A stretch of 64,000 bases of DNA from Polytrichum commune (lineage: Eukaryota; Streptophyta; Polytrichopsida; Polytrichales; Polytrichaceae), in NCBI GenBank assembly GCA_950295325.1, contig OX485804.1, positions 66,748,033-66,812,032 on the forward strand, given 5' to 3'. Shown here one piece after another: positions 269 through 24,418 of this stretch (position 1 is the first letter of the stretch; every line of letters starts with the position of its first letter). The position numbers and the translations under genes were made by a program. A model generated the notes under the pieces. That model was not told the origin of the DNA and made no database searches. It was given only the letters and a program-made list of their open reading frames with translations.

Positions 269-315
269 CTGCAAATGTGAAATATATAAATCAATATTAT
301 GGTCAAGGGATGCAG

Positions 316-2889: not shown

Positions 2890-3420
2890 CTGTCTAGAGC
2901 TCCTGGCGCTCTTATGCAACTAAGACACAAAGCAACAAATCAAGAGCAAGAAGGAGAAAGAGGAGAAACAACAAGTAAGAGGAGAAGGATGAGAAACAAC
3001 AAGTAGAAGGAGGAGGAGAATGAGGAGAAACAGCAAGTAGAAGGAGATTGAGGAGGAGAATGAAGGAGAAGGAGATTGAGGATGAGAATGAAGGAGAAGG
3101 AGAATGAGGAGGTGGAGAAGGAGGAGAAGGAGGACCAGCAAGGGCGAGCAGCAAGGGCGAGGAGCAAAGGCGAGGAGCAAGGGCGAGCAACAAAGGAATG
3201 CAGGAGGAGGAAAGGAGCGAAAGGAGGAAAGGGTGAAAGGGTGAAAGCAAAAAGGGCAAGGGCGAATGCACGAAACCCTAAACCCAAAACGTTGCATCCA
3301 CTCCCTCCCAAACGCCCCTACCTAGACGTCCCATCACCCCGCGCCCAAAGGCCACGCGTTCCCCTTACGTGGCATATGTCTATTGGTCTATATTAGAGTG
3401 GTAGAGTCCACCCTCGATAA
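2890..3420 (-). promoter_or_regulatory. Putative promoter and pyrimidine-rich 5' leader of the element B ParB-like gene
   Basis: On the minus strand 3110-2940 is a long CT-rich tract (GAGAAGGAGAATGAGG repeats on plus), matching in character and relative position the CT-rich leader of element A at 11957-12240. A candidate donor (ACAG then GTGCTT) ends the leader at 2890, and the next acceptor would be at 270-269, before the ATG. The GC-rich block 3290-3370 may be core promoter. The overlapping 119-125-aa ORFs here are low-complexity and unlikely to be proteins. Confidence 0.45.
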
Positions 3421-4408
3421 ATGTCACACTTCCACATGTTAACTCATAATTGTATTTGTTAACAAATTCGTACTCCTCTCATATTGCTAACTAGAATGTT
3501 AACTTTGTTAAATGTTAAGAATAATTTATTCCCCTCTTTGTTAATTTGCCACTTATAAATGTTAACCTACGAACTACATCCAATATTGTGAGATGACATC
3601 CATTACATTGAGTCACAACCTTCCAAAGTGGCAAAAGCCACCAAATTTGTGATCAAATTATTAATATGGGTTATATTGTGATTGATACACATATTTTATG
3701 TTTGATAATTTTGCAAAACTCTCCCTTCATAATTGTAATGAATGAAATTTGTTAAGCATTCAAAAAGCTCCCTTTATAATTGTTACAATGTCAACTCACA
3801 ATAAATGTTAGGAACATTGTATTCTAGAGCCTAACATTTATAGAGGATGGATTGTATGTTGTTTGAGTCCAAGAACGTATACCAAAAACAATTGCTGACC
3901 AAAAATAAAGGAATCTCAATGCTCAATGTATAATAACCATCTAGGCCCAATAGTAAACATAATTCTGAAGTATAGGTTGAGGTTGAGTAACTCAAGTGTA
4001 AGATTTTCTTTGTGGACTTGTTGTAATATGAAGGTAAGCGGGCTTTAAATTACTAGTACACTAACTATTATAAGTAGTATTGCTTAATATTTAGAATTAT
4101 GGATTGCTATATTAACTATTCATTGTATATTAATATGTCATTGGCATCAATTAAATAACATCAATAATAAAAAGATAAAGCCTTTTGTAACTCCAAACAA
4201 TGAGTGAAACTAAATTATACCATTTCTAGTGTAGCAAGTATGGAGGGGACTTTATATTTTAAGAATAGTAATAATATTGAATATAAAGGATGTCTTCTTG
4301 ATTAAGTTAAGTATAATTTTTTTTTCACAAAGGTGGGATTCAAATGCAATTGGGACAATTGCATTACCCATTGGCCACAAATTCTCATGAAACGTTGCCC
4401 CTACACCC
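3421..4408. other. Left part of element B spacer, no gene seen
   Basis: AT-rich non-coding sequence with scattered GTTAAC-containing repeats near 3438-3560. Element A inserts at 4408; the spacer resumes at 21195, after the duplicated ACCC. Confidence 0.45.
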
Positions 4409-4436
4409 AACACTATATTCGTTAAATTGAGACTTT
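4409..4436 (+). repeat. Element A left terminal inverted repeat
   Basis: Starts AACACTATATTCGTTAAATT and continues GAGACTTT. It is the exact reverse complement of 21167-21194. An inverted repeat immediately inside (GAGACT...AGTCTC, 4430-4447) may form a hairpin; a similar hairpin is present at the transposase-side end of element B. Confidence 0.88.
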
Positions 4437-4940
4437 CTCTAGTCTCAAATTAATATATGGATCAAAGAACTTGAAGAGGCCCGAAACTATATTGTCAACA
4501 ATCTCAATTATATTATATGTTCTAATATCCCAAATCTATGATGTGCGGACATAAGCACATATGGTAGAGCACTCGACACCAACTTCATCAACAAAAACAC
4601 ATTGGGTAGAGCACTTCAAACAAGTTTCACCCAAAAATATGTATAAAATGATTTCTATTATTAGCATGTTCAATAGAATATAGACATTGCAACATACAAA
4701 GTGCATGTAATAAATGCATGTTTCTTCATTCGAGAATATAGTCCCAAACATAATAATAAGATGAACTTCAATTGCAGCTTGAAATATAGTAAATGGATAT
4801 TCATCCAACTCCAAACAATATAGTATTCGTAAGTTCTACCCAAACTCTGCCCCAATTTTGAAGAGCACACATATGTGTAATTCATATTGCTATAATTACG
4901 TATTAAACTATAATCATGCTAACACAATCCTACCAACTTC

Positions 4941-7900
4941 TCATTCAACGTGGGTTGCTTCTTCTGCAATCCGAGCAAGGTTGTCTTTTGCAAAAGTTAT
5001 GTACTTTTGAGGGATGGACACTGATCCACTATGGTGTTTCCGTGGTTTCCATGCTATGAATATGGAATCTGTATCTACCCAAGATGGACCGTGCTCAGAA
5101 TCCACCTTCCACCGAAAGTTAGGGTTTGTATCCCAGCCTGTATAATGCCGAATCACATCTTCATTCCTTGCTGTCGGTCGATAGTACTCCACTTGTATTT
5201 GTCGAAAATGAGGGCTGGAAGTTACAAAATTGGGATTGGACAAAGCTCTTGCCACCCACACTGGCTTCGCATATGTCTCGTCTCCAGGACGCAAAATGAG
5301 CATATAACCTTCATGACAATCCACTGCAATGCGGAAAGATGGTGGGGGACGACTACTAGCAGGCCCCACGTAATGGTCGTCCACATCAAACTCCTCTCGA
5401 ACCTCTCCATTTCCCAAAAGACTAGGCTCTGAAGCTTGTACATCGACTCGTGTTTGTGGCCAAAATCCATGCCTCAAAGTATGAGGGCTATCTTGGTGGA
5501 GGTCTGCCAAGGCGGCACGAACACGTGTCCAATAATGTATCCAACTCCCATAACGATGCCAACATGATCCGCCAACATCCGCTATTTTCAAACTCTCCCA
5601 ATATTGTATGAAGCCTGATATACCTTTCAAAATATCCTCCAAATTCGTCATGGCTATTGGCTTACAAGGCCTAGGCTCCCCATCCGGTAACATGGTCTTT
5701 CCATCCGCATCCACGCGCCACACAAGAAGACCCTCCGGCGGGCTCCAGTCTTGTGACGTGCACAACAACTTGTATTGCATGGCCGGGACACCATCGTCAC
5801 GCATATAGAAGCGGAATTGTTGTGCCTTCGTATGCCCGATCAATCGGTGAGCTCCACTTCGAATATAAGGTTCTATAAATGCCTTGAAGTCTGGCACCTC
5901 CTCAATCATATGGGGGATGACGGGAACGTTCTCCAAATCCATGCACGACTTCATCAATAATGGAATTGTAGGAAAATCCTCCTCCCGCAACTTCATGCTC
6001 CACCGCCCAAAAGATGCATCAATATCATCGTGCGTGTGGCCTACCAATAGGAAGGACACAAAAACCTCCTTGAAAATGCCTTTCGCAACCAACAACGACC
6101 AATATGCAAATACATATCTGCTTTTATTGTCCTTGGCACAATTGTCCAATTGGACACGCAAAGTTGGAGGCAACTTCTTGGCAATCACGGGTTCATTGGG
6201 TGGCTCGGGCAACGAATGCAAGCATACATTTTTTCCATCCAACACCGCTTCATATAAAGGTGTTGAACCCGTGTTCTCAAATAACAATCCTGAAGAATAG
6301 GCTGGTGGTTTCTCTAAATCACGTAAAAGCCTTGCAAATGATCCTATCGTGTGGTTTGAATCCGCTGGATACAAATCAAGAGCATAATGAGCAAATTTGA
6401 CATCACCGTGTCCATGTGCAATCATTCCTGCAATGCCAACCCAACGTGATTAGCATCTATGTATGAATAAACCATTATGAAGGAATCCATGTTCTCCAGT
6501 ACATCACGGAATAAAATACAACAACATTTAGGGTATGTCATGACATTGTTTCGAAGTTCACCTGTAACCGATACAGGCAACTTGAAAAACCCATCCGTGG
6601 CCTTGATTCGTTTTGCAAAACATGGGGAGGCTGTTTTGGCATGGTCCATTTTGTCATGGATGACCGTAAGAACCTCCAAGGGCCTGGAGATGGACAAAGC
6701 TCTATTTGTATAGTAATCATTACGGTGTGCCTCTTGCATGTTTACGTGCTTGAAATAGTTCAATTGATGCGCTGCATATGACTCGGTGCCCATCGTGTGT
6801 GCATCCCGGAGGCGCTTCAACTTCTCGCAATTAGAGCACCTGGAAAATTTGTCCCCTCGTCTTTTTGTAATGTATTCGCTAAAGTTTTGTTTCTTGATTG
6901 CACTCAATTTTGACAATGAAATTGGCTCCAACCCAATCTTCTCGCCAACTGCATTAACGTCCAACAATATGTCTTTCCATTTTGTGCCTGTGGGAAGAAC
7001 TTTCTCCACAACCTTTTCACCGGTTGTGAGTGTGCGTGTTTTGTGCGGCATTGCATCGGCAAGAGGGACAATGATGGTTGCTAGAGTGGCCGTTGCTTGC
7101 CTTGTTGCTTCCCTAGGCTTCTTTAAACCCACGTTACCATGGTGACGGGACCGGCGGCCTTCCTTGGCATAAGCAGCTTGTCTATAAAAGTCCGATTTCG
7201 ACACACCGTGAATGGTGTACCATGCCTTACAACACACGTCTATGCTTTCAATGGTGATGACCTTGCGACCCGTCCCATTCACATGTATCGCCCTATGGAC
7301 ATCAAGTTTTCTTGTGGATCTTAGACGGAAATCTCCAAGCCACATTTCTTCGCGGATGACCTTCAATTTATCCCTTGGAAACAATTGGCAACAACGATGT
7401 ACACAACAATCCTTTGTGGCAACTTCTCTAATGGACTCCTCCCCGAGCAACCTTTGACGTTTACAATCAGTTGCAGACGGAGCAGGACGTGCCAATGTAT
7501 CGTACTTTCTTTGACCCTTGCGCGGCCGCATGTTTGATTGCACCTCCTTTTCGATTTGCATGTGTCGTTGCTCATGTTCACGCAAGCTAACTCCATCAAT
7601 TGTGACATTCCTCAATGGCCACCTGCGGAGGGAGAACCTATGAGTGGGATCCACCTCGGAATGAACGACCGACTCCAATATGACAACCCCAACGTCCTCA
7701 GTGCCAAGCGGGTTTTCATCAATGCAATCTTGCGGATGGGTGTTACGGCAAATCCCCTCCGCCACAACAACTCCACCATCGTTAAGAAGTATCACCTCCA
7801 AATTCACCCACGAAGCCCTTGAAAGTCCCGTACATTCAACAATGGGACACTGCGGTACGGAAGACGAAGGTAAATCCAAATGATCTTCATCCGCACTGTC

Positions 7901-8005
7901 AGCCATAGTAGCCTCCCCGACAATGTCTAGGTCATCATCAGATGCAGATGGCCAAGTGGCCATGTCATCAGATGACCAATCCCCTATTTCACTAAACCCA
8001 TCCAT
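4941..8005 (-). CDS. Element A transposase-like protein (DUF7869-like), two exons, apparently intact
   Basis: Exon 1 runs 8005-6562 and exon 2 6427-4941 on the minus strand. They are joined by a 134-bp intron (donor ACAG/GTGAAC, acceptor TTGCAG) in phase 1, giving 976 residues. I start at the ATG at 8005 because the homologue at 24563 starts at the same point and an acceptor-like AG lies just upstream. The N-terminal part has an acidic region, a cluster CCxxRCCQLFPRDK and a possible zinc site CSNCEK. The C-terminal part has HDKMDHAKT, LDNCAKDNK and VGHTHDDIDASF, spaced like the acidic residues of an RNase H-fold transposase and resembling the DUF7869 family. The reading frame is open throughout, so this copy may be functional. 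It is transcribed divergently from the ParB-like gene across the palindrome array. The transposase role is inferred from motifs, position beside the terminus and presence in element B. Confidence 0.75.
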
Positions 8006-8212
8006 TCTGCCTACACACATGAACATTGAACATTGTCTTAAAATCACAAAAATTATAGGTTCAAATCGAAGAACAAAAAAACCATCATATATAAACAAAA
8101 TTGCAAATACTCAGTGCTCATACAAGTTCATATGACTGCTATGCCATTGGGCTTGTAAAGGTTTCGGAAGGCCAGTGGCCACACCGGCACCCAGATCCCA
8201 ACCACACTTAGA

Positions 8213-9570
8213 GGCTGGGTTTGGGTCGAGCGACCCAAACCTTTTGGGAGGATGGGTTCAGGCTCAATACAGAGAGCACCCACACTTAGGCGCTGGATTT
8301 GGGTCGAGCGACCCAAACCTTCTGGCAGGATGGGTTTAGGCTCACTACAGACAGCATCCACACTTAGGGGCTGGGTTTGGGTCGAGCGACCCAAACCTTT
8401 TGGCAGAATGGGTTTTGGGTCACGACAGGGAGCACCCACACTTAGAGGGCTGGGTTTGGGTCGAGCGACCCAAACCTTTTTGCAGGATGGGTTCAGGCTC
8501 ACAACAGTGAGCACCCACAGTGTAGGGCTAGGTTTGGGTCGATCGACCCAAACCATGAGGCAGGATGGGTTCAGGCTCACAACAGTGAGCACCCACAGTG
8601 TAGGGCTAGGTTTGGGTCGATCGACCCAAACCATGAGGCAGGATGGGTTCAGGCTCACAACAATGAGCACCCACACTGTAGGGCTGGGTTTGGGTCCATC
8701 GACCCAAACCTTGAGGCAGGATGGGTTCAGGCTCACAACAATGAGCACCCACACTGTAGGGCTGGGTTTGGGTCCATCGACCCAAACCTTGAGGCAGGAT
8801 GGGTTCAGGCTCACAACAAAGAGCACCCACACTGTAAGGCTGGGTTTGGGTCGACCGACCCAAATCATGAGGCAGGATGGGTTCAGGCTCACAACAGTGA
8901 GCACCCACACTGTAGGGCTGGGTTTGGGTCCATCGACCCAAACCTTGAGGCAGGATGGGTTCAGGCTCACAACAAAGAGCACCCACACTGTAAGGCTGGG
9001 TTTGGGTCGATCGACCCAAATCATGAGGCAGGATGGGTTCAGGCTCACAACAGTGAGCACCCACACTGTAGGGCTGGGTTTGGGTCGATCGACCCAAACC
9101 ATGAGGCAGGATGGGTTCAGGCTCACAACAGTGAGCACCCACACTGTAGGGCTGGGTTTGGGTCGATCGACCCAAACCATGAGGCAGGATGGGTTCAGGC
9201 TCACAACAGTGAGCACCCACACTGTAGGGCTGGGTTTGGGTCGATCGACCCAAACCATGAGGCAGGATGGGTTCAGGCTCACAACAGAGAGCACCCACAC
9301 TGTAAGGCTGGGTTTGGGTCGACCGACCCAAACCATGAGGCAGGATGGGTTCAAGTTCACAACAGTGAGCACCCACACTGTAGGGCTGGGTTTGGGTCGA
9401 TCGACCCAAACCATGAGGCAGGATGGGTTCAGGCTCACAACAGAGAGCACCCACACTGTAGGGCTGGGTTTGGGTCGATCGACCCAAACCTTGAGGCAGG
9501 ATGGGTTCTGGCTCAATACAGAGAGCACCCACACTGTAAGGCTGGGTTTGGGTCGACCGACCCAAACAAT
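8213..9570. repeat. Tandem array, about 18 copies of a 78-bp unit centred on the lineage A palindrome
   Basis: Each unit contains TTTGGGTCGNNCGACCCAAA plus conserved flanks (GAGGCAGGATGGGTTCAGGC and GAGCACCCACACTGTAGGGC). The leftmost units are more divergent. The 9-bp arms barely change while the two central bases vary (AT, AG, AC, CC and others). The unit length is 26 codons, so several frames on both strands stay open over 300-470 codons; these are by-products of the repeat. The array lies just upstream of the transposase gene, between the two divergent transcription units, and is a strong candidate binding or regulatory region. Confidence 0.95.
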
Positions 9571-11700
9571 TCCGCAAAATCCGCCTATTTATTCGGGTGA
9601 TGCTCTATTAATCTATTTATAACCTATTTGGGACAACTGAACTCATAGATGCTTGTTGTAATTAGCTGCTCATGAATGGAAGCGTATACAAACCGTGTAT
9701 TACAGCTCCAACTTAGAGAGCTTGCAGCAATCTCAGGATTGGGACATGAAAGAAAGAACCAGCATTTGGGGGGGTTGGGCTCTTTATACTACCCGCCTCC
9801 GCTTTGGGCATCCTCTTTGGATGCCTTTCCCACCTGGTCTCCTTTGGATGTTAATTCAAACCTTCTGACTCAATTTCCCGCTTCTTGTCAATAATAGAGA
9901 ATGTATATTTAGCTTGGCTCTTCGTTGCCCCAACCACCAAATGAATAATTCAACATATATTTAAAGTTGTTACCACCCTAACTTGGTCAACACTATTCTT
10001 CAACTCTTTCATAATTAGTTTTATACATGAATACACCACCACCTTCCCTATTGCCATCTCCTTTCTCCTTTTATCATTGTTGTATATTTTTCTCACATCC
10101 TTACTAATACTAAATCCCTATATGTAACTTCCATATATCACCATAGTGGATATTTAGTGTTTGAGTTTACATTTAATGTTACTTACTCTCATAGGGTTAG
10201 TAATGGGAAGTGTATGCGTTCGTTTTAAGTGTATCAAACACTAACTATCATATAACTAAAAAGGATATAAAGATTTTGATACACTACATATGAACGCATA
10301 CACTGAATACCAATAACCCTATGACAATATGTAAGATTATATCTATTAAGGGGTTTTACTCTACTTGTAGTCAAACATTATGGTATATTTCAAACAATAT
10401 ATTGACAAAAGATGTGCATGTATTATAAAACTTCATATACTAAAAGTCACTAAATATAATAGTTAATGCTATTATTTAGACTCTCACATGAGGACTTATA
10501 TTTTGAAAACAAATAATTAATGCCATGACAAACTTGAATAATTTGGCCAACTTTCAATTTCTGCTAATTAAAAGAACATATGTTGTGTTGTAATGTGTGC
10601 ACCCAATATTGCTTCATCCTCAAGACTCCAAGTGTGACAATAACCTAGTACCTATGTGGAAGTCATTAATGGAACCCTAAACCACAAATGACATTTGGCA
10701 CGTTCAATCTTCCAAGGATGTTTGAACCTATCGTGAAGTCCCTTGAACTCTACCAATGTGTGTGAGCAAAACATGCAAAGTTCAAAAGGTATGTCCTCAT
10801 ATCATTCACAACATGAAATCTACTTTAAATTAATATATAATATTTCACTATTCCAAATAACATGTTAACATGAACAACATCCTATCCATTATAATCTAGT
10901 TCTTATGCTCTTCTTACCAGGTGACAAGGTTATAGGTTAATATTGTATCACCTACTTGTGAGCACAATATCGTTTATTTCCTTTAGTGCGTTCATTCGTG
11001 AAAAACCACACATCCATCTTTCACGTTTGTGAATTAGGATGTTGTGATGACAATATACATTTGTATTGGAAACTACAAGCACCAAGGCCCATGTCATTTG
11101 ACCTATGTGCCATCCAGTTATGGTTTGTGTTGTTTAAGGTTTAGGGTTTAGGGTTTAGGGTTTAGGGTTTAGGGTTCAGGCATCATCAAACATCAAACTG
11201 AATGTTTAAATGACTTCATATGATATGTGAACTCCATGGGGTTGCAGTAGATACATTTGTAATCATTTGTTTCTCCCATGTACTTCAAATGTGAACTTCT
11301 AAGTACATATATTAATGTTCACTCTAATGCTACTTGTTAGGGTATCCATTATAGACTAGAGCATTGTCCTCTACCAACAACCATCATATAAATTACAATA
11401 CATAATCCTAAACTGTTAACCATGTGAATGGTTACCATATTTATATTATTGCACCGTGTAATTGCCTTTGTGGATTGCAATATAATTATGACTTACTCCT
11501 CTTAGACTTTGTAACACTCTCATATGATTCCATAAATTACATTATTCATACACCAAAACGATAATGGCTACATTCAACGATGTTATCAATTCCAACGGGT
11601 GATCATTCAATTGAACACCATTAAAATATGAGTTGGTGATGGTGTTAATTTTGTGGAATACCTTAGTCCACGTAGGTTTTTGAGTGGTATTGAATTGCCG
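9571..11700. other. Element A central spacer, no gene seen
   Basis: AT-rich sequence with no convincing ORF or similarity to a known gene. It separates the palindrome array from the promoter of the rightward gene. A local inverted arrangement of ATAGGGTTAGTAATGGGAAGTGTATG near 10190 and its approximate reverse complement near 10290 is visible. Confidence 0.5.
11138..11178 (+). repeat. Interstitial telomere-like repeat (TTTAGGG)5
   Basis: Five near-perfect tandem TTTAGGG units, the common land-plant telomere repeat. The tract sits in the spacer of element A; short tracts also lie in the spacer of element B (22089 and 22350). This is an internal site, not a chromosome end. Confidence 0.9.
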
Positions 11701-12558
11701 CTAATGAATAGCGGGTTAGAAGGCCGGGGCCGGGCGGCCAAGAGAGGCGCCGGCCCTCCTATGTCCCGCACCTAGGGGCAAGGACAACCAGGAAGGCAAT
11801 CTCCCTAGGGTGGCAGGTGTCAACACCACAAGCCTCGCGGGCAACCACCTAAACCAAGGAGGTGTCGACACCTGGCAAGGTGTTGGCCCGCGGGGCTTCT
11901 GAGCCGTTGATGGGCCCGGCGCAATCTAATGGCCCGGATTCGAGGGTTTAGGGTGACCCCTTCCGCTCTCTCCTTCTCTCCCCTCCTCTTTTTTCTTTCT
12001 CTCTTTTTCTTCCTCTCTTCCTCCGCGCCAAGCGCCGCTCTTGGAAACGCCGCCGCCGCTTTCCATAGCGCCGCGCCAAGCGCTTCCTCTCGCACCTTTT
12101 GCTTTTGTCTTGGTCGCGCCGCTTCCCTTCATTCTTCTTTCTCCTTCATTCCTCTCCTCCTCTCTGATGCTTCTCCTCCTCTTCTCTCATTCTATTCCTC
12201 TTGTTATTGTCTTCTTCTTCTTATTCTCTCTTCTTGGTCCAGAGTGTTAGCTTTGAGTGAGTTCGGAGCGGTTTATTGTGTTGAACTCCTTACTTGTTTT
12301 GTAAAATTCATGCATGGAGTGATTTTAGGTTGAGTAGAAGTGAGCACGGTCGAGTGTGATAGAAAGGTAGAGGTCTTTCAAATTAGGCCTGAGTTTGCAA
12401 GAATCAGGGGGTTTGTGAGAAAGTTTTAGGGTGCTTGAGAGATTCATTGTGTTTCTGAGATCTTTGTGAGAGTTGTTCTTTAGTGCCACAATAGAGTTTC
12501 TGAGTCTGGTTGTAAGAAGCAGATTGTGAGAGCAGCTTTCAAGAGTTTGAAAGACAAG
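11700..12558 (+). promoter_or_regulatory. Promoter and 5' leader exon of the element A ParB/methyltransferase-like gene
   Basis: A GC-rich block (11710-11960) with a GGCCGG...CCGGCC-type inverted repeat is followed by a CT-rich leader (11957-12240). The leader ends at a near-consensus donor, AAG/GTAAGC, at 12558/12559. The next acceptor is at 13801-13802, abutting the start codon, so a 1.2-kb intron in the 5' UTR is inferred. No upstream ATG gives a long frame. The transcription start is not determinable by eye. Confidence 0.6.
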
Positions 12559-13802
12559 GTAAGCAATTTGCATCAGTGCACACAATTTGCATCATTCCCT
12601 TTAGGTTCCTGTTACATATACAATGCATAAGCATTGTATATGTTGCCCAAGCATTAAACATGCATCTGGAAACACAGTAGTTTGGGGAGACGACCCAAAC
12701 TCATATTAAAATATAATAAATATTTGAATTGCAGCCTAAAATGAACTAAATGTTTGGGTCGTTCGACCCAAACATTGCAGCCTCTTGTTTGGGTCGAGCG
12801 ACCCAAACATTGGAGCCTCATTATGTTTGGGTCGCTCGACCCAAACATTACAGGGAGAAGAACTAAACCACATTGTAAAATATAAAAGAACTTTAAAAAT
12901 TAAGTAAATGTTTGGGTCGTTCGACCCAAACATTGCAGACTGAAATGACTGGGTTGAGGTACCTAAATTTGCAGCCTAACATGTTTGGGTCGCTCGACCC
13001 AAACATTACAGGGAGAAGAACTAAACCACATTGTAAAATATAAAAGAACTTCAAAAATTAAGTAAATGTTTGGGTCGTTCGACCCAAACATTGCAGACTG
13101 AAATGACTGGGTTGAGGTACCTAAATTTGCAGCCTAACATGTTTGGGTCGCTCGACCCAAACATTACAGGGAGAAGAACTAAACCACATTGTAAAATATA
13201 AAAGAACTTTGAAAATTAAGTGAATGTTTGGGTCGTTCGACCCAAACATTGCAGTCTGAAATGATTGGGTTGAGCTACCTAAATTTGCAACCTAACATGT
13301 TTCGGTCGGTCGACCCAAACATTACAGGGAGAAGAACTAAAGCACATTGTAAAATAAAAAAGAAATTTGAAAATTAAGTAATTGTTTGGGTCGTTCGACC
13401 CAAACATTGCAGTCTGAAATGAATGGGTTGAGCTACCTAAATTTGCAGCCTAACATATTTGGGTCGCTCGACCCAAACATTACAGGGAGAAGAACTAAAC
13501 CACATTGTAAAATATAAAAGAACTTCGAAAATTAAGTAATTGTTTGGGTCGTTCGACCCAAACATTGCAGTCTGAAATGAATGTGTTGAGATACCTAAAT
13601 TTGCAGCCTCATCATGTTTGGGTCGCTCGACCCAAACATTACAGGGTGACCACCTAAACCACACTTTAAAATCTAAAAGATCTTTTAAAACGACTTTGAA
13701 AATTAAGTAAATGTTTGGGTCAATCCTCCAAATGTTAAATGCACATTGCAATACTTTGGGTCGATCGACCGAAACTCACAGTTTCGATTTCTTGGATTGC
13801 AG
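12559..13802 (+). repeat. Leader intron packed with about 15 lineage A palindromes
   Basis: The palindrome TTTGGGTCGNNCGACCCAAA recurs from about 12751 to 13775, mostly as pairs in a higher-order unit of about 158 bp (one palindrome followed by ATTACAGGGAGAAGAACTAA, the next by ATTGCAGNCTGAAATGA). Central bases include TT, AG, CT, GG and AT. A few copies are damaged (12679, 13711, 13755). The intron ends TTGCAG immediately before the ATG at 13803. Confidence 0.88.
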
Positions 13803-16800
13803 ATGGCCCCTAAAAAGAGACCAGGTGAAAGGTGGTTCATGCTCGCGCCAGACCACCTTTGGCAGGAGTATGAAACTCCACAGGACGATTCTTACGTCCC
13901 AAAAGATGGCGTCGTTCTGGCATGGTCCGTTCAGGTGGTGAAGGCATCCATGTTCAAGCTGCTATTCGTGGTGAAGGTGGGGACCCACGAGCAGCACACC
14001 TGGGCAACGCTGACGGGATGGGAGGTTGCGTCCGTCCAGTCTCTCGGGGACTACGTAGACGTCATACTGGAGAACTCCGCCGTGCAGAACGTCCACATGT
14101 TCATGCACCAGTTCTCCGAGCCCTTCGACCCCCTGTACGCCAAGGAGACTTGCGTCGACCCTGAAACCATAAAACCGGAGGCCATATTCATAGATGGTAG
14201 TGTAACGAACACGAAGGTTGCGAGCAGGTTCACGAAGTTAAAACAGGCTATCACGGTTCTCAACAAGGCGCTGCAAAGAACACCCAAGACGCAGCAGCCT
14301 GTGAGGCGGAAGGCAACGACGGAAGAAGGCACAGGGTCCTCAAGACCACAAACTGTGAGGAAACCGCGGGCGGTCCCTGCAGACTCGAGACGGACGAGCA
14401 CTACAACAACGCCGGCTGACAGCGAGACGCCAACGCCATCAGGAAGCCGTCAGACGACCCCTTCCAAGAGGGGAAGAGAGTCATCGGGGATGACTGACGA
14501 GCCTGTTTCCCCGGAGCTCCGGATGCCGAAGCCTGGCCAAGAGGTGGATGCAGGCGAAATACAAAAAATAAACAACAACTTCGAGACAAAATGCCTGCAT
14601 TGCTTCTTCATGGGCAGGGACTTCAAATTCGAGGTCAACATTGCGCAGTGCCACCTTGCGCCACCAGAGAAGTGCGTCCGAGCCAAGGAGGACGCCTACG
14701 TCGACTGGATGGTCGCTCAAATCTTGGGCGGGCAGTTCAAGGACGACAGGCAGACAATTGTTGTCATGTCACAAGGGCTGAAAAGAATGCCGACGCCTGA
14801 GATGTGGCCGGCAATCTCTAAAGGAGACTTCTGGCTGATTGACGGGCAGCACAGTGTGGAGGCCTCGAAAAAAATCCAGCTGATGACCGAGTGGGACGAC
14901 CCGAACAACCAGAAGGAGAAGCTAAAAGTTTGGAAGGCTTTGGTGGTTTGGTCGGACAACGAGACGGTCCTCAGCAACATCTCCAGATTCTTCAACATGG
15001 GGAACAAAAAGAGGGCCTATCAGGCATCGTGGATCAGAAACATCATGGCCTCGAGGGAGGTGTGGGAGTTTTATGGAAGGCCTCCCAAGGAAAGGGAGAA
15101 TGCTAAAGACAAGAACCCCAAATGGGAGGTGAGTATGTTCTACATTGTTTTGTTGTCATCGCCAAACTCCTACATTGTTTTGTTGTCATCGCCAGGTTGA
15201 TAGTTTGGGTCGGTCGACCCAAACTCTGAAATTATTTTGATATTTTCCCCAGGTTCATAGTTTGGGTCGGTCGACCCAAACTCTGAAATTGTTAAGATGT
15301 TTTCGCCAGGTTCATAGTTTGGGTCGTTCGACCCAAACTGCTATTGCATTTGTTTTTCCATTATGTGTTGTCTAACATGTGCTAATGTCTTCCTGTGCAG
15401 GACTTCAAATATCAAATGATCAATAAATTCTCCTCGATCGATAATGCTAGCCACAAGCAGAAAAAGTATAACGAGCTGAGAGGAGAAATCTATTTGATCA
15501 CAGCGTCCGATTCCGTATGGGCAAGATGGAAGAGTGTTTTTGAAAAACACGAGACGGGTGACCTCATGGACCCCGACACCGGCATGCTCTTCAACCAGAC
15601 TGGGCGTTTCAAGCAAATGAAGCCTCTGGTGAGGGAGTTCTTCAGAGCGCTTCAAGGTCTCTCCGAGACAGAGATGGGAAAAGCGGCGTCCCACATCCTA
15701 CACGTGGAGACGACAGCGAAGAGATGCTGGGTCCACCCTAAGATCGTCTTCACCAAACCCAAGATCTTCGTCCCTTCATGCTACACAATGAAGGAATGGA
15801 CGGAGAACAGGAAGAAGAAGACGACCATCGTCCAGGAGCTGCACAAGCTTGTGCCAGAGAAGAAGCTCATCGTGGACGGAGAGGTCGACGAGGCGCACTG
15901 GAGGGCCTTCAAAGCCGAATATAAGTTTACCAGTGCGTCCATGGCGGCACTCATGAGGGAGGCGGGAGACGACTTCCTCAGATCCAAGCTCGTGAAGGGG
16001 GGGAGGAACCGGGCGCTTCCCGAACACTCAGTGTGGGCCTTCTCCAACTTCATAAAGGAGAAGAAGATCGTCAGTTTCGAAGGCGATGCGCAATTCAACA
16101 TGGTCACTGTCGAACCTCTCAGGATCCAGGGTTGGCCGGGTTCTGAGTCAAGGAAGGCGATCAGGACTAGAGCCGGGGACCGCTTCCCCTTCGGAATGAT
16201 AGACTTCAGGAACGTCCCTGGAGCCTCATTCGAGGGGACTATGAGCACCCCTTTTTACGATCCTTTCTTGTCGAAGTTCGTGAACTACGCCAGCCCCAAA
16301 TTCAGGGAGGTCGACGTCTGGCTCTGGATTGTCGAGGACAGAAGGGCAGAGCAGGTTTACGAGATCGTGCGCAAATTGCAGCCGGAGTATGCCGTCTCGA
16401 AATCTCACTACGTTGCTGCACCGGCGGAGGGGGCGTACAACACGCTGAAAGACAAGAAGACGAAGATCGTCAACGTGCTGTGTTTGTACTTCGTGTACAA
16501 AGCTGAGCTGCTTAAGGTGCCAAACCATCCCATAGCCAGGATGGAAAAGCTCTTCCAAGTCCAAGAAGGGTTGGGTACCAGCAGGAGCTTATATGACGAG
16601 GCGAAGTACGCCAACTACCCAGCGGATGAGCTGCGCATGGAGTTCTACCTGCGGGTGATGAGGACCCTCACGAAGAGAGGGGACTGCATCTTCAACGTTT
16701 TCGGGGGGTCCAAACCGATTTTTGCAGCCATGGTAAGCAGAAAACCCAGAAGTCCCTATACGTTCGGTTTGGGTCGAACGACCCAAACTAGGGGCATGCA

Positions 16801-17355
16801 CAGTTTGGGTCGAGCGACCCAAACTAGGGCCATGCATAGTTTGGGTCGAGCGACCCAAACTAACTATTCTTATTTTGTTTTGGAAGTCATTTTCCATTAT
16901 ATGTTCATTTGGTGTTACTAATAGTATTGATTTTGATTGTGCAGATGTCTGGGTTGAACATCTACTCCTATGTGGAGGATGCCGATGTTCAATTCTACAG
17001 GACCCAAAAGGCGCTGGCCAAGAGAATGGACATCCTCGACTGGATACCCGGATCCTACGTCGAAGAGATCGTCGAGGGGGGCGAGAATCCTTTGGATATT
17101 GCGAGGCGAATCAACCCGGGTGAATTCGCCATGCGGGCCCCCGTTCAATTGCCAGAGCCGCTCATCGGGTTGCATCCGGGCAATCCGTCTATGGGAGCAG
17201 GTGGCGAGGTTGGGGAGGAGGGGGAGGAAGACGAGGAGGAGGCGGAGGAGGAAGCAGAGAAAGTGGAGGGGGAGGTGGAGGAAGGGGCAACAAGATTCAC
17301 TCAAGAATCCGAGGCCCCTCAGCGGAAGAAGGCCATGCGGGCTGCCACGCCGTAG
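13803..17355 (+). CDS. ParB/DGQHR-like plus beta-class DNA methyltransferase-like protein (element A)
   Basis: Three exons join in phase 0: 13803-15128, 15401-16732 and 16945-17355 (TAG), giving 1022 residues. All junctions are GT-AG (GAG/GTGAGT, ATG/GTAAGC). Residues about 285-420 resemble a ParB/Srx or DGQHR domain, with WLIDGQHSVEAS centred on D347. In the last half, PADELRMEFYLRVM is followed by GDCIFNVFGGSKPIFAAM (870-886) and, across the intron, GLNIYSYVED (889-898). This matches the spacing of the KP...RLI, GD.VLDPF.GSGTT and G.E.D elements of beta-class (N6/N4) methylases, whose motif I lies C-terminal. The expected upstream DPPY-type motif is not canonical (EVDVWLW near 745), so catalysis is doubtful. 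A serine/threonine-rich basic linker lies at about 160-260. The N-terminus resembles the exon at 268-1. Both introns contain lineage A palindromes. Domain calls are inference from motifs. Confidence 0.7.
15129..15400 (+). repeat. Intron with three lineage A palindromes
   Basis: Perfect-arm palindromes TTTGGGTCGNNCGACCCAAA start at about 15204, 15258 and 15317, in 54-60-bp repeats beginning CAGGTTCATAG. The flanking splice sites are GAG/GTGAGT and TTCCTGTGCAG. Confidence 0.92.
16733..16944 (+). repeat. Intron with three lineage A palindromes
   Basis: Three palindromes start near 16768, 16804 and 16840, about 36 bp apart, with central AA, AG and AG. Donor is ATG/GTAAGC and acceptor TTGTGCAG. 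Element C keeps two palindromes in the same intron (39046-39107). Confidence 0.92.
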
Positions 17356-18423
17356 AGCAGGCTGGTGCCCGCGTTGACGGTGGACGACGCCAAGGATATG
17401 TACTCGAGGGACGCGACGGCCACCTTCAGGGAGCGTAGAAGGATGAAGGGGAAGAAGCTGTACGGGGACTATGCGGTGGAGGAGACGATCGCAATAAGCT
17501 CCAAGGACGAGGACGACATGGAATTCGCCAAGAAGCTGAGGTCTGATCCTGCCTCCCCCAGAGCGTTCGCCGGGAATGTGAGGGTGAAACCGGAGGTCCT
17601 CACCGTGGAGGAGGCGAACGCAAAAATGCTCCGAGACGAGGAGCAGCGTGTGCGACTGCAGAGGGCTGCCGCCAAGGAACCCTCTGTCCGCAACGAAGTC
17701 GCGGAGTTGAGGGCTCTCCTGTTGGAGCAGGAGCGGCAAAGGGCGATGTCCCAAACTCCGTCCCAAGCGGACCTCATCACGCAAGTGATCCAGGGCATGC
17801 TGGCGCAGGGATTGGTGATGGCTCCCCCGAGTTCATTCCCTCACTTGCCCGCAGGCTTCCCTCCACAGGATATCCGCCCGTGGCCGGCGTTGGAGCATTC
17901 CTTCAGCTTCGCGGATTTGCTGCAGCCGCACGCCCGTCCTTACGCGCCTGTGCAGCAGGTGGATGATCCAAACCTTTGGCGCGTCCCCGGAGCGTCCAGC
18001 TCGTTGGCACCCCCGCCGCTCCGGCCTCCCATCCTCTTGCCCCCACACCACCAGCGGGACGACCCCCACATGTTTGGGTCGTCCGACCCAAACAGTGCCG
18101 ACGTTGCAGCGTCGCAGAGCGACCCTCGCCAAGCAGCAGGGTTTGGGTCGGCCGACCCAAACCCCGTCCCCCATCAGACCCCGGTCGACGAGCCTATGCT
18201 AGATGTTGAAGGCCCGCAAGGGCCTGGTGATACCTCTACTCCTAACCCAGTCGATGAACCAATGCATGATGCGCATGCGGAGGTTGGGTTGGGACAAAGG
18301 CCTGACAGTCAGCCTTTGCAGGAGCAGGTTGCGGCTGACGGCGTCGTCGGAGGCGGCGGTGACAGAGGTGGGGCAGCGCACGCGATGCCGGCATCAACGT
18401 CGTCAAGGCACGACCAAGGCGAG
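17356..18423 (+). CDS. In-frame continuation beyond a single TAG: coiled-coil and proline-rich region (element A)
   Basis: After the TAG at 17353-17355 the same frame stays open for 356 codons, with no ATG near the start, so it is unlikely to begin a separate protein. It contains a charged helical segment (VEEANAKMLRDEEQRVRL through LLEQERQRAM) likely to form a coiled coil, then a proline-rich region. At 18423 a donor (GAG/GTAATG) in phase 0 would splice to 18926. The same TAG and the same open frame are preserved in element C (TAG at 37584-37582). A short intron removing the TAG (for example a phase-0 GAG/GTTGGG donor at about 17208 to the CGTAG acceptor), stop-codon readthrough, or an old shared nonsense mutation are all possible. 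Confidence 0.55.
18073..18161 (+). repeat. Two lineage A palindromes inside the coding frame
   Basis: TTTGGGTCGTCCGACCCAAA (18073-18092) and TTTGGGTCGGCCGACCCAAA (18142-18161) are in the same reading frame and encode FGSSDPN and FGSADPN. The corresponding positions in element C are also retained (one with a changed arm, near 36843-36864). Confidence 0.93.
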
Positions 18424-18925
18424 GTAATGCACTGACCCCACTCAGTTTGGGTCGGTCGACCCAAACTTCCTGGGTCTTTGACTTCTTGCCTTGGTCGTGT
18501 CCCCTAGCTAGGACGAACTTAGGCCCCCCCCGGCACTCGCGCCCTTCGTCACCCCCAGCGACCATTCGTTCGTCCACCTACCCCCGGCTTTGCAACGAAG
18601 TCTTCATCACGGCGGCCCGTCTCTTCAAATTTTTCTAGATGTAGAAGTAGGCTAGTTTGAACGCATCGTTCAACGCGGCTCCCCCAATCAAGATGTACAT
18701 AGAGCATTGTATATAATATAATCACCATTTTTGACTCCTATATACTTGTATATTGTGTTTGAATGTATTTTGTATGCTCTTGTATCCCTTGTATCCCTTG
18801 TTGCACCCCCTCCAAAATGAATCAAATGCTTTTGTGTTTGCACCGAGAACGCTCGTTTCCTTAATGCTTCGTTTGGACATAGCATGACATAAGTCGCCCC
18901 CGTTTTCTCTCGCTCGTATCCGCAG
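18424..18925 (+). other. Inferred intron joining the coiled-coil exon to the HAD exon
   Basis: Donor GAG/GTAATG and acceptor TATCCGCAG are both conserved in element C. A lineage A palindrome lies at 18446-18465. The join is phase 0 to phase 0 and opens directly into GSEHSVAAP and the HAD domain. A TATA-like stretch (18708-18722) leaves open that the HAD domain is a separate transcript. Confidence 0.55.
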
Positions 18926-19738
18926 GGCTCGGAGCATAGCGTAGCGGCTCCCCGACGCTCTTCCCCAAGGAGCGGAGAGGGCAGCGCGGCGGCGCCCCCG
19001 GTTTTACCCGCCCCGCCCCCGCTGCCGAAGAAACGATTCCTGGTGTTAGACCTGAACGGGGTCCTCGTCCAATGCGTTCATTGCCCTAGGACCCCCACGG
19101 TGCCCTTTTGCAAGCCCGAGGACGCTAATTACGACGGGCCGCCCACGTTCATAAAGAGCAAACTAGTTCACCTCCGCCCGTGGCTTCGGACCTTCCTCCA
19201 GATCGCCCAACAACGATGGTGGGTGGTCGTGTGGAGCTCCATGAAGGCCGAGAACACCAATGCCGTCGTGGAGTTCATCTTCAAGGGCATCGAGCCCCCC
19301 TGCATGGTCCTAGCACAAGAAGCCTGTAGAATATTGTACACACCTGACGGCAAAGTCGTCAAAAAACCAAACAACCCCGCTTCCCCCCAATATCTCAAGG
19401 TCTTGAAGCCCATTTTTTGGGACCAACGTCCGTCCTTGATAGGCGTCCCCTACGACGTCCGCCCCACCTGCGAGAACACGCTCATGGTGGACGACAGCGC
19501 CGCAAAGAACATGTTGAACCCGACGGCCAACCTCATAGTTTGCCCTACATGGACGGTCGAGAAGGTCCGGGACTGATTTTTGTTAGACCTTAGTAAATAC
19601 CTCCAAGCGCTCTGGGGTAGCGGGCTACCTGTAAACAATTTTGTTAGGAACAATCCGATAGGCGAGAGATACTTGGATCCACGAGACCATTTGTACAGAG
19701 AGTTGTTCTCACACGCAAAATTCAACAAGCTCATTTGA
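18926..19738 (+). pseudogene. FCP1/NIF-like HAD phosphatase domain, element A, with premature TGA
   Basis: The exon encodes a proline-rich lead and then FLVLDLNGVLV, WWVVVWSSMKAEN and TLMVDDSAAKN. These correspond to motifs I, II and IV of the HAD-fold FCP1/SCP (NLI-interacting factor) phosphatases. Motif I has DLN in place of DxD, so the second catalytic aspartate is replaced and activity is uncertain. The frame is stopped by TGA at 19574-19576. Element C has CGA (Arg) there and continues 53 more codons to a shared stop equivalent to 19736-19738; the change is C to T at a CpG. The exon length is 813 bp in both copies. Confidence 0.75.
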
Positions 19739-19875
19739 GGCACTATGTGTGTTTGTATGTGTGTGTGTGTGCCCGCCCACTTTGTGTAATATATGCTTCA
19801 TATGTATCTTGATTTTCACGCGCTCTATCAAACCCTCCTCCCTTGGGTTTTGTTTTGTTTTAATTTTGGCTCCAG

Positions 19876-20645
19876 CGTTTGGATCCCTCGATTGACATCG
19901 TGAGCGAGTCAAACTTGGGGAGCTTCTTCTACGAGATTGTTTACGACGCAGCGTCAACCATTGACTACTCCAAGGAGCCTATTGACGCCGGCGTCGTCGA
20001 TAGCCCCCCACCCAAGCAAATCTTCCGGCGATCTGCGTCCCCGTCGCCGCTCAAGGGCATAAATCGCAAATGCGTCCGGACGTCCCCCTCTCGACCCGGC
20101 GGCCATATTACACCTCAACGGCGGCTGCGGATGGACGCTCGGCCAACGAAGAGTGGAACCCTTCCTATTCCTTTGCGGGACGCCTTGCCCCTCCTCGCCA
20201 ACTCCGACGGGAACGCCCCCGGTGACAAGGTGAACCCCCCCCCCCAACATGGTTAACCGCGCATTACAATCATCCCGCACTTAAAAAATGAATGTGTGAC
20301 ACGTTTGGGTCTTCCTCCCTTAACTAACACGTGTGTTCTTGCATTCACGCGTTGCAGGTTGCTCCCGCCCGTAAACCTATGCGGGATGATCCGTCCGTCG
20401 AGTTGGAGCGTTTCTACTCCATGACCAGAAATGCAAGACAGTCCACTTCATCGTATTCGAATTCTTCGGCGTATAATTCGGGCGGCCGACGGAATCCAAA
20501 ATGTGTTATTGTTGGCTGTCACCCCAAGAATGGCTATAGTCGCGGGGCGGAGATTTTCAGGAATGTTGAAGCAATGCGAGCAAAAGAAGCCGCAGCAAAA
20601 GAAAAAGAGGCAAAAGAAAAAGAGGCACTCTCCGAGGCTAGATAG
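19876..20645 (+). CDS. Small basic C-terminal ORF of element A, two exons, function unknown
   Basis: Exon a (19876-20229) follows an acceptor GGCTCCAG and ends GACAAG/GTGAAC. Exon b (20358-20645) follows GCGTTGCAG and ends in TAG. Both joins are phase 0, and element C has the same exon lengths. The peptide is rich in Ser, Pro, Arg and Lys, with SPSPLKG and, at the C-terminus, a lysine/glutamate/alanine helix (EAMRAKEAAAKEKEAKEKE). There is no ATG at the start, so an upstream exon must supply it; splicing from the donor at 18423, skipping the HAD exon, would be in phase. The intron contains one palindrome half-site (GTTTGGGTC at about 20303). I do not recognise the family. Confidence 0.55.
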
Positions 20646-20699
20646 GCCATAGTAGGCGTAGGGTTTTGGGCCATAGGCAAGAACATTTTGGGTCGCACT

Positions 20700-21166
20700 A
20701 TCCAATGGATGTTTAGGTGTTAGCATGCTATGCATTTTACATGCCATACTTTGTATGTTCTATTTGCAATAATATAAGTGTCATATGATTTCCCCTTCCA
20801 TATGGTCTAAGGTTTGGATTGCCCTACCTAAACCATCACAAATATGAGTTTGGAATATTTTGTATGCCATATTATATTGGTTAACATATTAACCCTTCAA
20901 TAAGATCTATGGTTTGGATTGCCCTACCTAAACCATATTCGTACAAGCTCTAATATTTTGTGTGCAATAATATGAATGTTTTAAGGTTTCCCCTTCAATT
21001 TGGTCTAAGGTTTGGGTTGCCCACCCTAAACCATCACAAATATGAGTTATATATGGGGTTTTTTGGTCTAAACACCCGCTTCAAAGTGTTCGCATCTTAC
21101 AACTTTCTCCAATATGTGTTCCATTTATCCTTGTTCTTATTTTTATGAATGTCTCAAAATGCCCAA
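20700..21166. repeat. Subterminal repeats at the right end of element A
   Basis: About three tandem units contain GGTTTGGATTGCCCTACC then TAAACC, itself an imperfect palindrome, near 20812, 20912 and 21010. They are separated by AATATTTTGTATGCxATA-type sequence. The same units occur inverted in element C (33893-34125). Subterminal repeats beside the inverted terminus are typical binding sites in CACTA-like elements. Confidence 0.75.
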
Positions 21167-21194
21167 AAAGTCTCAATTTAACGAATATAGTGTT
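21167..21194 (-). repeat. Element A right terminal inverted repeat
   Basis: Exact 28-bp reverse complement of the left terminus, ending CGAATATAGTGTT and followed by ACCC. The adjoining interior (AAATGCCCAAAAAG) is shared with the terminus of element C, so the ParB side and the transposase side of these elements have distinct subterminal sequences. Confidence 0.88.
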
Positions 21195-23568
21195 ACCCTT
21201 ATGAATCCCTCAATTATCGCAATAATTTGTGTAAGGGGATTTTCAACCCTACATTATACTATCAATAGCAACTTGAAAACTTTATTGAAGTTCGACACGT
21301 GGGATGCTTTGATGCGAATATCATTATAAATAATGATATTTAAATTATGCACATTTGAAACACAATTAACAAAACCAAACATCGAGATAATATGGGTTAA
21401 GATCAAATGCTTATAAAATCTTAAACAACGTTAGGGGTTAATTCAATCCCTCTGCACATAGGTCTAAGCTTGCATTAAAACAAAAGGCATGGGTAGGTGT
21501 TGAATTTACATCCCTCTTGTACATTAAACAACGTTCAGGATTCATCCAATCCTTCCAAACCTAGGCAAGAGCTTGTATTATCGCCTATAAGTAGTAGCAA
21601 ATTGTTGTTTATATTGGAGTTTTGTTTCCATGATGGTGACATGTATGGTTGTGTTAATGCTGTTCAAAACCTATCTTCAAAAGTAAAGGTTTAAAGCAAA
21701 TGGATAAATATGACTCAGAACATCACTTTGATGATCTTAAATGTTTTGAAGGCTTAATTGTTTTCATATTGTATCCCTTCATTTCATTATAAACTTGAGG
21801 TCACATCAAAGGATAACAAGTCCCGGCTAAATCTTGTACTTGCCTCTAAGGGGTATATTTTACCCAGCCAAATAAAGATTAAAAAAATGAAAGGTAAGGT
21901 TACGCATATAGGGTAATTAGGATTGCCATTGACAATTTGATAAATCTTTGTTCTATGTCACCTACTTTTTCACCACTTACTGTCTTGAAGTATAATTTGT
22001 GAACATAAATTTGCTTGACTTTTGAAATGTTTATGGTTTTATTTTAGATAATTTTGGGCCTTGACATGAGTGGGGAGTCGTTTATGGGGTTTAGGGTTTA
22101 GGGTTTAGGGTATCCCTCTTGTGTCACCGACTTAATATTGCTTGCCTTATTACTATTTGGATACCCTACCCTCCCTTTCTGTCCATTATATTTTATGGGT
22201 TAATAGTGTTACGTAGAACAACAATTGGTATAATTGTTTGCTTGTTTGTTTTGAATTACTTTCCATTTAAGCCTTGACATGTATCGGGAGTTGTTCAGTT
22301 AACCATGCTTGCACCCCTATATGTCCACATGCTTGTTTAGGGTTGGGTGGTTATAGGGTTTAGGGTTTAGGGTACCACGTACGAACGCATGTGAGTATCC
22401 CCCTTGCGTCACCAACTTAATATTGCTTGCCTTATTACTATGTGGATACCCTACCCTTCCTTTCTCTCCATTATGTTTTTTTGGGCTAATAATGTTACTT
22501 GGAGCAACAATTGGTATTGTTTGAGTATTAATTAATGTAGGTAATGTACATGAGGTACTAAAAAATGTTTTCCCTCACGTATAGTACATGAAGAAGGCTA
22601 GTATAATTAGTTTATTTTGAAGTAAATGTTGATGTACGGAAGGGGCCCCTAAGGTTTAGAGAGAAAATTGACAATATTGAATTGAATGCAACCCATGTTA
22701 CCTAGGACAATAGATGTGCTACTATCATGGCCTTACGGTAATCAAAGTTTGTGTATCAGATATCAATACAATTATGTATAGGTGTGTATAGTTGGGTACA
22801 TTAAACATGTTGGATGGTAAGGCGGTGGCCAATGTAATTATAATATTAAATGCAAGATGAGAGGAGATAGCATGATATTATGGTCAATACCATTACATTG
22901 TATGCAAAATAATAAAATAGTTGCTAATTTAATTTTGATTACATGTATTTTTATACTCCATGTACTATTGTTGTTGTGGTGGTTGATTTTTCACAAGATT
23001 CTATAATTTTTTGTCTACGTTTTTTAAAATGTACTCTTCATATTATGTACTCCAATCCTATAAACCACCCCTCAACAATGTTTATTGCTCATATAATATT
23101 AGCCAATTTACTTTGTTGTATACCACAAATACATAGATGCCTTTCTCTTTGTCATTATGTGGACTCATGGTCTATGCATGTTGTCCACATGAATACACAT
23201 TCCATTGTAAGGCTGGCACACGGAATGTAGTAATGCTAGGTTTGTATTTATAGGACATAGTTGGTGGCTGGTATCCTATGTTGGAAAACGGATCCAAGGG
23301 AAAGCGATCAGTACTTAAGGGGACACCCCCCACCGTCGGGACTCTTTTTGCATCTCAGCTGTGGGTTGCGCTCTTGTAGTGTGCTCCTGCTACAGATTTT
23401 GTACAGGTTAAGATCCTGTTATACTCTAAACCCCAAATCCTGAGCCCATTAGGGTAGACAATTTGTATTTGGGTTGCACTCTCCTTGTAGTGTGCTGATT
23501 TTTTTAAAATTTCGGACAGTTATCCTTTCTGGTGCAATGATCCTATTTTAACGCCGCAAATCACGGAG
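21195..23568. other. Right part of element B spacer; direct repeat with telomere-like units, no gene seen
   Basis: AT-rich. Two diverged copies of a segment of about 190 bp lie at about 22085-22275 and 22345-22525. Both contain TTTAGGG repeats followed by CTTAATATTGCTTGCCTTAT and ACAACAATTGGTAT. A smaller duplication (GGGTTGC...CTTGTAGTGTGCT) lies near 23367 and 23472. No ORF here looks real. Confidence 0.6.
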
Positions 23569-24418
23569 ATTTACGGACGCGCGTCCGTAAACCTTAAACA
23601 TATTGGTTCATTGAACCTTTATTTGTTTGAGCCAATACTCATGTACATGGATGTTTACGGACGCGCGTCCGTAAACCTGCATACCTTTGGTGCCATAGTT
23701 CTGTAGGTCACCTACACCACCTGTCGTGTAGAGTACCACAACGACAATATATTACCATGGAAGTTTACGGATGCGCGTCCGTAAACCGTAAACCCCTTGG
23801 CGCGTTGGACATTGTATTTAGGCTAGTAATGATGTCCACAGAGGTGTATTCCGTCGAGCACTGTCTTTATGCTAGAAATGAGGTCCACAGAGGTTTACGG
23901 ACGCGCGTCCGTAAACCTGTAAACCTTTGTTACCATAATGTTGACCATGTGCCATGTAGACTGAGACTGCACTGAGACTGTACGGTCAAGAAGGGTTGGG
24001 AGCTCGCATCCCTTAGCCTACATCACCCTATGTCATAGTAAAATATTTTGACATTGATTAAACATTTTAGGAAGCGCGTATGGCCGTGTTCAATCCTCCT
24101 CAAATTTCATGAGTCGTCAGGGTTGTGTACACATGGCCGTTTTTGGAGGACGTCTTGCTTCCTTGAACTTGTATCTAGGACTACATTGATGTTTGTCATA
24201 CGGATGTTTATGGACGCGCGTCCGTATACCTATGTTGTGGTTGAGCATGATACTGAACTCTGTGCACGAGCCGATTAACGGATGCGCGTCCATAAACCAG
24301 TGATGTTTTTGTTGCCTCCACCTTCCCGCTCCTATGAACACATAAATGTATCCGTATGCGCGTGTGCTTGCGCTGCTGATGTTGTTACATGGAGGTATAT
24401 GGACGCACGTTCGTATAC
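23569..24418. repeat. Lineage B palindrome cluster upstream of the element B transposase
   Basis: At least seven sites with arms TTTACGGACG / CGTCCGTAAA occur near 23570, 23653, 23763, 23893, 24207, 24275 and 24395; the last three are decayed (TTTATGGACG and similar). They lie where element A has its 78-bp array, immediately upstream of the transposase gene. Confidence 0.9.

Follow-up and report, generated by a model that had tools for sequence, protein, structure and literature searches.

The 64,000-nucleotide stretch of Polytrichum commune DNA analysed here (contig OX485804.1, positions 66,748,033 to 66,812,032; hereafter the window) contains a DNA transposon of 16,786 bp, element A (4409..21194), in which 41 copies of a 22-bp palindrome, GTTTGGGTCG-NN-CGACCCAAAC, span positions 8219-18466. 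Our results support the view that this palindrome is a selected, two-fold symmetric site, as opposed to a product of simple tandem drift. Reasoning from the sequence and by analogy, we favour on balance the interpretation that these are sites for a dimeric protein encoded by the element itself, most likely the N-terminal part of open reading frame 2 (ORF2), which would have an anti-silencing or activating function.

A preliminary description of this DNA had reported about 40 copies of a 20-bp palindrome with almost invariant arms and a variable central dinucleotide. Both the number and the pattern hold, the fixed unit being 22 bp and not 20 bp in length. A scan of the window with TTTGGGTCGNNCGACCCAAA, allowing up to three mismatches, yielded 47 matches against 0.04 expected from dinucleotide shuffles. 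Element A accounts for 41 of them at 8220-18465 (36 exact 20-mers and five with one mismatch) and for one more, with three mismatches, at 20687, while the remaining five lie at 36473-39103 in a second copy of the element, copy C (four exact, one with one mismatch); no match falls in the other 41.7 kb of the window, beyond elements A and C. The exact 22-mer is present in 32 of the 41 sites, and arm bases deviate at 10 of 820 positions, all ten changes being one-sided and none compensated. Nine kinds of dinucleotide occupy the centre (AT 12, AG 7, TT 7, CT 5, GT 4, AC 3, AA 1, TC 1 and GC 1). Among other sequence collections, viral contigs gave no match to the palindrome, and a collection of genome contigs, from which the window's own genome is possibly excluded, gave one matching stretch, in a record titled Rikenella. 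An Rfam scan returned nothing reaching gathering scores.

The arms are conserved within surroundings that are not. When ten contexts were sampled at one random site each (500 draws), the arms agreed on average at 0.973 (lowest 0.960), the flanks at 0.258 and the centre at 0.289, and nine hand-picked intact sites, one per context, gave 1.000, 0.263 and 0.264, respectively. Within the array of 78-bp units upstream of the transposase gene, non-consensus cells amount to 6/340 in the arms, 6/34 in the centre and 84/952 in the flanks (column permutation P 0.0007; 17 of the 18 units, the last being omitted for want of a right flank). One class of the 158-bp units that precede ORF2 behaves likewise, with 2/120 in the arms versus 39/444 in the flanks (P 0.0085). 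Between A and C, the five shared sites differ at 1/100 arm positions, 3/10 central positions and 296/4273 positions of the rest (P 0.006 and 0.028), a comparison of few sites that omits position 16767, where A has a site and C lacks one. In the ten contexts, in these arrays and between the two copies, the arms thus diverge more slowly than the flanks. Spacing and flanks, in turn, vary among sub-arrays (78-bp versus 158-bp units with unrelated flanks), as had been described, and it is the near-identity of the arms amid unrelated flanks that bears out the earlier suggestion of selection rather than tandem drift.

Eighteen palindromes, lying between 214 and 1562 bp from the transposase ATG on its upstream side, form the promoter array (8219..9567; 78-bp units), and 14 more, mostly in 158-bp units, occupy an inferred intron directly 5' of the ORF2 ATG (12752..13775). 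Three lie in ORF2 intron 1 (15203..15338), three in ORF2 intron 2 (16767..16860) and one in the inferred intron 5' of a NIF phosphatase-like exon (18445..18466), and two are found in an exon, where they encode FGSxDPN (18072..18162). Non-coding DNA therefore holds 39 of the 41 sites, though coding bases make up 8517 of the 16,786 bp of element A; the corresponding P of 2e-10 assumes independent sites and is too small, since sites of one array are not independent. The preliminary description had sites filling the divergent promoter, all introns and one exon. The two exonic sites are as stated, whereas the promoter is filled on the transposase side, the 14 sites of the ORF2 side being in the intron before its ATG, and the claim for all introns has to be given up: sites with 0-2 mismatches occupy four of the seven inferred introns of the two genes and are absent from the transposase intron and the last two ORF2 introns, one of which contains a remnant with five mismatches at 20303. 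CpGs fall inside sites in 33 of 35 cases in the promoter array and in 30 of 34 in the 5' intron array.

Decayed forms of the palindrome are also observed. The 158-bp units at 12947-13442 include an extra one of the GATTGGGTTG-AG-CTACCTAAAT type, with 5-7 mismatches, several of them C-to-T or G-to-A changes. Near the right end of A, 98-bp repeats contain three degenerate 22-mers with four mismatches each (20812..21031); in A and in the corresponding repeats of C (33895-34114) these are of the GTTTGGATTG-CC-CTACCTAAAC type, with 4-5 mismatches, and between the two copies their arms differ at 1/60 positions and the surroundings at 22/426. Spread by insertion of tiny mobile palindromes was considered and rejected, as no target duplications are seen by eye around the sites.

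Element A is bounded by 28-bp perfect inverted repeats, at 4409..4436 on the plus strand (AACACTATATTCG...) and at 21167..21194 on the minus strand, and the same end recurs at 33733 in copy C. It is flanked by the duplication ACCC (4405-4408 and 21195-21198), so that the 4-bp target duplication is known from one insertion only. Its transposase (4944..8005, minus strand; 976 aa, with one inferred intron at 6428-6561) matches PF25273 DUF7869, a word that was not found in the literature searched, a body of text outside which most subscription papers fall; one transposase relative, with 46% identity, comes from Physcomitrium patens. The transposase gene is divergent from ORF2 (13803..17355, plus strand), the proposed reader of the palindrome, whose exons at 13803-15128, 15401-16732 and 16945-17355, with splice sites inferred from the sequence, copy C and relatives, encode 1022 aa up to an in-frame stop. 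Downstream ORF2 exons (17356..20646, plus strand) encode a NIF (FCP1-like) phosphatase-like domain, PF03031, and in A include a further in-frame stop at 19574-19576. The first motif of this domain (18926-19737) reads DLNGV in place of the usual DxDx(T/V), which makes catalysis doubtful, and the domain may be a pseudo-enzyme.

An indication of the identity of the reader comes from a sister element, B, in which A is nested. The right part of B (21195..28268, plus strand) ends in a terminal repeat (28241-28268) sharing 26/28 bases with that of A and carries a DUF7869 transposase with an in-frame stop (24563..27638, plus strand), while its left part (1..4408, minus strand) runs off the window, carries a solo long terminal repeat (LTR; 312-1288) and contains a probable first ORF2 coding exon at 2-268. 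With the transposase and end repeat of B to the right of A and the ORF2-like exon to the left, A appears to have inserted between the two genes of B. The A and B transposases share 64-66% identity over two aligned parts, which do not include residues 1-57 of A. The palindrome of B, however, is a different one, GTTTACGGAC-N4-GTCCGTAAAC. Six copies lie in the probable intron that precedes the start codon of B ORF2 (1437..2095; five exact and one with three mismatches relative to the 24-mer scanned), seven upstream of the B transposase (23569..24418; four with 0-1 mismatch and three with 2-4), and one, with four mismatches, in the inferred intron of that gene (26020..26043). The layout is that of A, with sites before the transposase and in the intron before ORF2. 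Across eight B contexts, after dropping two of ten sites as tandem copies and excluding sites with more than three mismatches, the arms agree at 0.954 and the flanks at 0.321. The alignment of the left exon of B (2-268, minus strand) to ORF2 begins at the first residue and covers 83 columns, with 28% identity. Ends and transposase are thus kept between A and B, whereas the palindrome and the N-terminus of ORF2 differ, which argues for ORF2 as the reader, or at any rate against the transposase. At 27754-28038, close to the right end of B, three 91-bp repeats contain mixed sites, one half resembling a B arm (TTTACGGATG) and the other a degenerate A arm (GTTTAGGGTC); judged by eye, these are possibly traces of motif turnover.

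Four protein relatives of ORF2 were found: P0001-P0003, 70-72% identical, which are gene calls running through introns, and P0065, 69% identical, which was added by a second search with an ORF2 profile. Translated in its three reading frames, the A palindrome gives VWVxRPK, LGRxTQ and FGSxDPN. P0001-P0003 contain nine such peptides, eight in introns matching those of A and one in an exon, versus 0.0005 expected from shuffles, and by eye no alignment is seen between their intron flanks and the flanks in A. Site numbers change, ORF2 intron 1 having a single site in P0002 but three in A and in P0001. Among 61 transposase relatives, no A-type peptide was found. P0065 has one intron-encoded peptide fitting another palindrome with the same frame, GTTTCGGGCG, which is deduced from the peptide alone and by a search pattern chosen after the peptide had been seen. 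With GTTT and CG fixed, that pattern finds 10 real peptides (nine A-type and the one of P0065) against 10 in 150 whole-set shuffles together, and none in 3000 shuffles of the P0065 tail; dropping the CG condition gives 13 against 0-2 in five shuffles, the three extra ones being exonic and probably due to chance. A B-type peptide pattern occurs in two transposase relatives, P0019 and P0020, versus 0.176 expected, which is no more than suggestive, and a strict B-type scan of all 65 proteins gave none. Viral contigs yielded no confirmed ORF2 relative.

Two-fold symmetry around a free centre would be consistent with a dimer that takes one half-site in each arm. Moreover, arrays in promoters and introns that differ between families match the targets of VANC (PMC5735166; PMC10398659), whose motifs lie in introns and intergenic regions as tandem arrays differing between VANDAL families (PMC5735166); this match leads us to propose self-recognition with anti-silencing or activation. 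In such a model, an ORF2 dimer would dock on many palindromes, and its binding, both at the promoter of the transposase gene and within the ORF2 introns, would mark the DNA of the family as its own. The bound protein would then keep non-coding regions open, either by countering methylation and silencing or by activating transcription directly, as in the VANC analogy, and related families would avoid cross-talk by changing the palindrome arms together with the reader. What the sequence itself shows is the sites, the constraint on their arms, the free centre in A, the bias in position, the other motif of B and the retention of sites in three of four relatives. Three steps of the model are inferred: the identity of the reader as ORF2, its action as a dimer and, by analogy, an anti-silencing outcome.

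Several observations weigh against this interpretation. ORF2 shows no recognised DNA-binding domain in profile and sequence scans, its exons and P0001-P0003 have no Pfam match to DUF1985/DUF287, and two AlphaFold structure models of it are poor (mean predicted local distance difference test score, pLDDT, 31.5 and 47.3). Its in-frame stop at 17353-17355 is common to A and C, which implies either that the full-length protein comes from other copies or that a shorter product suffices; the relative P0003 is open at this position. Regarding conservation, tandem copying homogenises arrays and so inflates within-array values, and in the other class of 158-bp units (five rows) the difference between 0/100 in the arms and 12/380 in the flanks is not significant (P 0.146). 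The centre of the B palindrome is less free than that of A (its four central bases agree at 0.768). The match of the B left exon to ORF2 is weak by hhalign (probability 12%, P 0.0025) and was missed by tblastn, so that place, start and end alone favour this exon as the ORF2 counterpart. P0065 has no A-type peptide in the part of its intron seen. Finally, the degenerate palindromes near the right end leave room for a role of the transposase.

The transposase was indeed one of the two ligands put forward in the preliminary description. Were the palindromes internal enhancers or regulatory sites bound by the DUF7869 protein, like the subterminal repeats of other DNA transposons, the 18 sites adjoining its gene, the degenerate 22-mers with 4-5 mismatches in the right-end repeats of A and C and the half-sites in end-near repeats of B would all find an explanation. 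We nevertheless regard this as unlikely: A and B have different palindromes despite the 26/28 shared terminal-repeat bases and the similarity of their transposases, the terminal repeat is without the palindrome, the best match between the left end of A and the transposase stop has seven mismatches, and 39 of the 41 sites lie in the promoter array, the introns or the 5' intron. A host transcription factor or insulator protein, recruited to the promoter and introns of the element, would be in keeping with that placement and with the palindromic form, which suits dimeric plant factors. This alternative seems quite unlikely, as no match exists in the window outside A and C, the sister element B has another motif at the same places and a site with two fixed arms of 10 bp each would be long for a host factor.

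The other ligand proposed earlier was a ParB-like protein, and the palindromes would then be parS-like, with a ParB-type clamp loading on them and spreading for segregation or copy maintenance. The likeness to bacterial ParB-parS, drawn by analogy, consists of many palindromic sites for a presumed dimer; parS, however, is 16 bp long compared with 22 bp here, and there is no obvious reason why a transposon integrated in a plant genome should have to segregate. The label itself derives from visual reading of a DGQHS motif, which a low-confidence model of ORF2 places between a strand and a helix, and could not be confirmed: ParB was not matched in scans of Pfam, NCBIfam, PHROGs and PDB sequences, nor by tblastn against plasmids and phages, the scans returning weak unrelated matches only and leaving the ParB-N profile unmatched. 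A fold search with the second model (pLDDT 47.3), which is too poor for the search to be meaningful, gave 78 matches at E<=10 and none at 0.001, and no ParA was present among the frames scanned. In favour of this reading, a ParB-like accessory gene is reported divergent from the transposase in the Ectocarpus Sola1 element (PMC12477816). We consider a parS-like function very improbable for this eukaryotic transposon. Less credible still is the absence of any binding site, with the palindromes arising from tandem-repeat drift or acting as RNA hairpins in transcripts. The sites do lie in tandem arrays and an RNA stem of 9 bp with a 4-base loop is conceivable; against this stand near-identical arms with unrelated flanks in ten contexts and the persistence of sites in three relatives about 70% identical, and RNA hairpins were rejected because the arm changes are all one-sided, with none compensated.

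Recognition of the palindrome by ORF2 would have parallels in other mobile elements. In Spm/En, too, the element encodes a protein, TnpA, that has repeated sites and acts against methylation, as proposed here; the TnpA sites are subterminal in CACTA elements, which make a 3-bp duplication, whereas those of element A are in promoter and introns and the duplication is of 4 bp. Membership of A, whose ends read AACACTA..., in the CACTA group was rejected by eye, since the bases beside the inner CACTA mismatch and ACCC matches. With VANDAL elements and VANC (PMC5735166), element A shares short family-specific motifs arrayed in introns and upstream regions, and a transposase that is better conserved than the second gene next to it. 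Here too the arrays are dense in non-coding DNA (39 of 41 sites) and the motif differs between related families (GTTTGGGTCG-NN in A, GTTTACGGAC-N4 in B). The differences are that VANC motifs are 8-9 bp long and non-palindromic, that VANC has DUF1985/DUF287 and that VANDALs are Mutator-like elements, whereas A has a DUF7869 transposase; its duplication ACCC is not of the Mutator type, for which 7-12 bp are given in PMC10741241.

A further comparison is with the Sola elements, which have 4-bp target duplications and are present in Physcomitrella (PMC10741241), in line with the ACCC on both sides of A (one insertion) and its 28-bp terminal inverted repeats; the one domain matched by the transposase of A is DUF7869. 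The Ectocarpus Sola1 element, of 21.5 kb, carries a divergent ParB-like and methyltransferase gene, and it has been suggested that such proteins act on the transposon encoding them, by binding and modification; proteins similar to this accessory gene are reported in green and red algae (PMC12477816). Both are giant DNA transposons with an accessory gene on the strand opposite the transposase. Unlike that gene, ORF2 leads into a NIF phosphatase-like domain, has no methyltransferase Pfam match in the exons scanned and has no confirmed ParB homology, and the available text of PMC12477816 describes no binding sites. Fungal transposons encoding TET/JBP dioxygenases are also on record (PMC12730594).

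The remainder of the window is rich in repeats. Copy C (33733..39292, minus strand) is truncated, carries a solo LTR (37710-38682) and holds its five palindromes at 36472-39104. Related LTR retrotransposons and LTRs (about 975 bp) occupy 39354-46560 and 54204-59317, with 24-bp palindromes (GGGCGCTGTCC..., TGGACTTCCAT...) inside the LTRs, and a 229-bp tandem repeat extends over 41836-42965. Between B and C, at 30606-33107, there is a long intronless frame that is kinase-like by eye, while repetitive frames rich in G or in C, found on either strand at 46905-48011 and 53677-54246, are probably low-complexity repeats. With its TTTAGGG runs, spliced genes and LTR elements, the window has the look of plant DNA.

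A wider reading, which we put forward tentatively as somewhat less probable than the interpretation favoured above, is that DNA transposons of land plants have independently converged on a code for recognising themselves. The reader would be an accessory protein that lacks VANC domains, is perhaps ParB/DGQHR-like and leads into a phosphatase-like domain; its target would be a 22-24 bp palindrome with the shared frame GTTT ... AAAC, and families would split as the reader and the middle of the arm change together. At present, perhaps three codes can be made out: GTTTGGGTCG in A, C and P0001-P0003, GTTTACGGAC in B and possibly GTTTCGGGCG in P0065. Among the matches listed in our literature searches, which left most subscription papers out of scope, there was no description of such palindrome arrays. 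Sequence-specific self-protection has been detailed for VANC of Arabidopsis. If the proposed reading is true, sequence-specific self-protection of transposons arose a second time, in another kind of element and with a protein that lacks VANC domains. The nested pair A and B, with near-equal ends and different palindromes, makes the co-evolution of reader and site testable by swapping sites and proteins, and a protein recognising a fixed 22-bp palindrome within chromatin would be a possible tool for targeted changes of methylation in plants.

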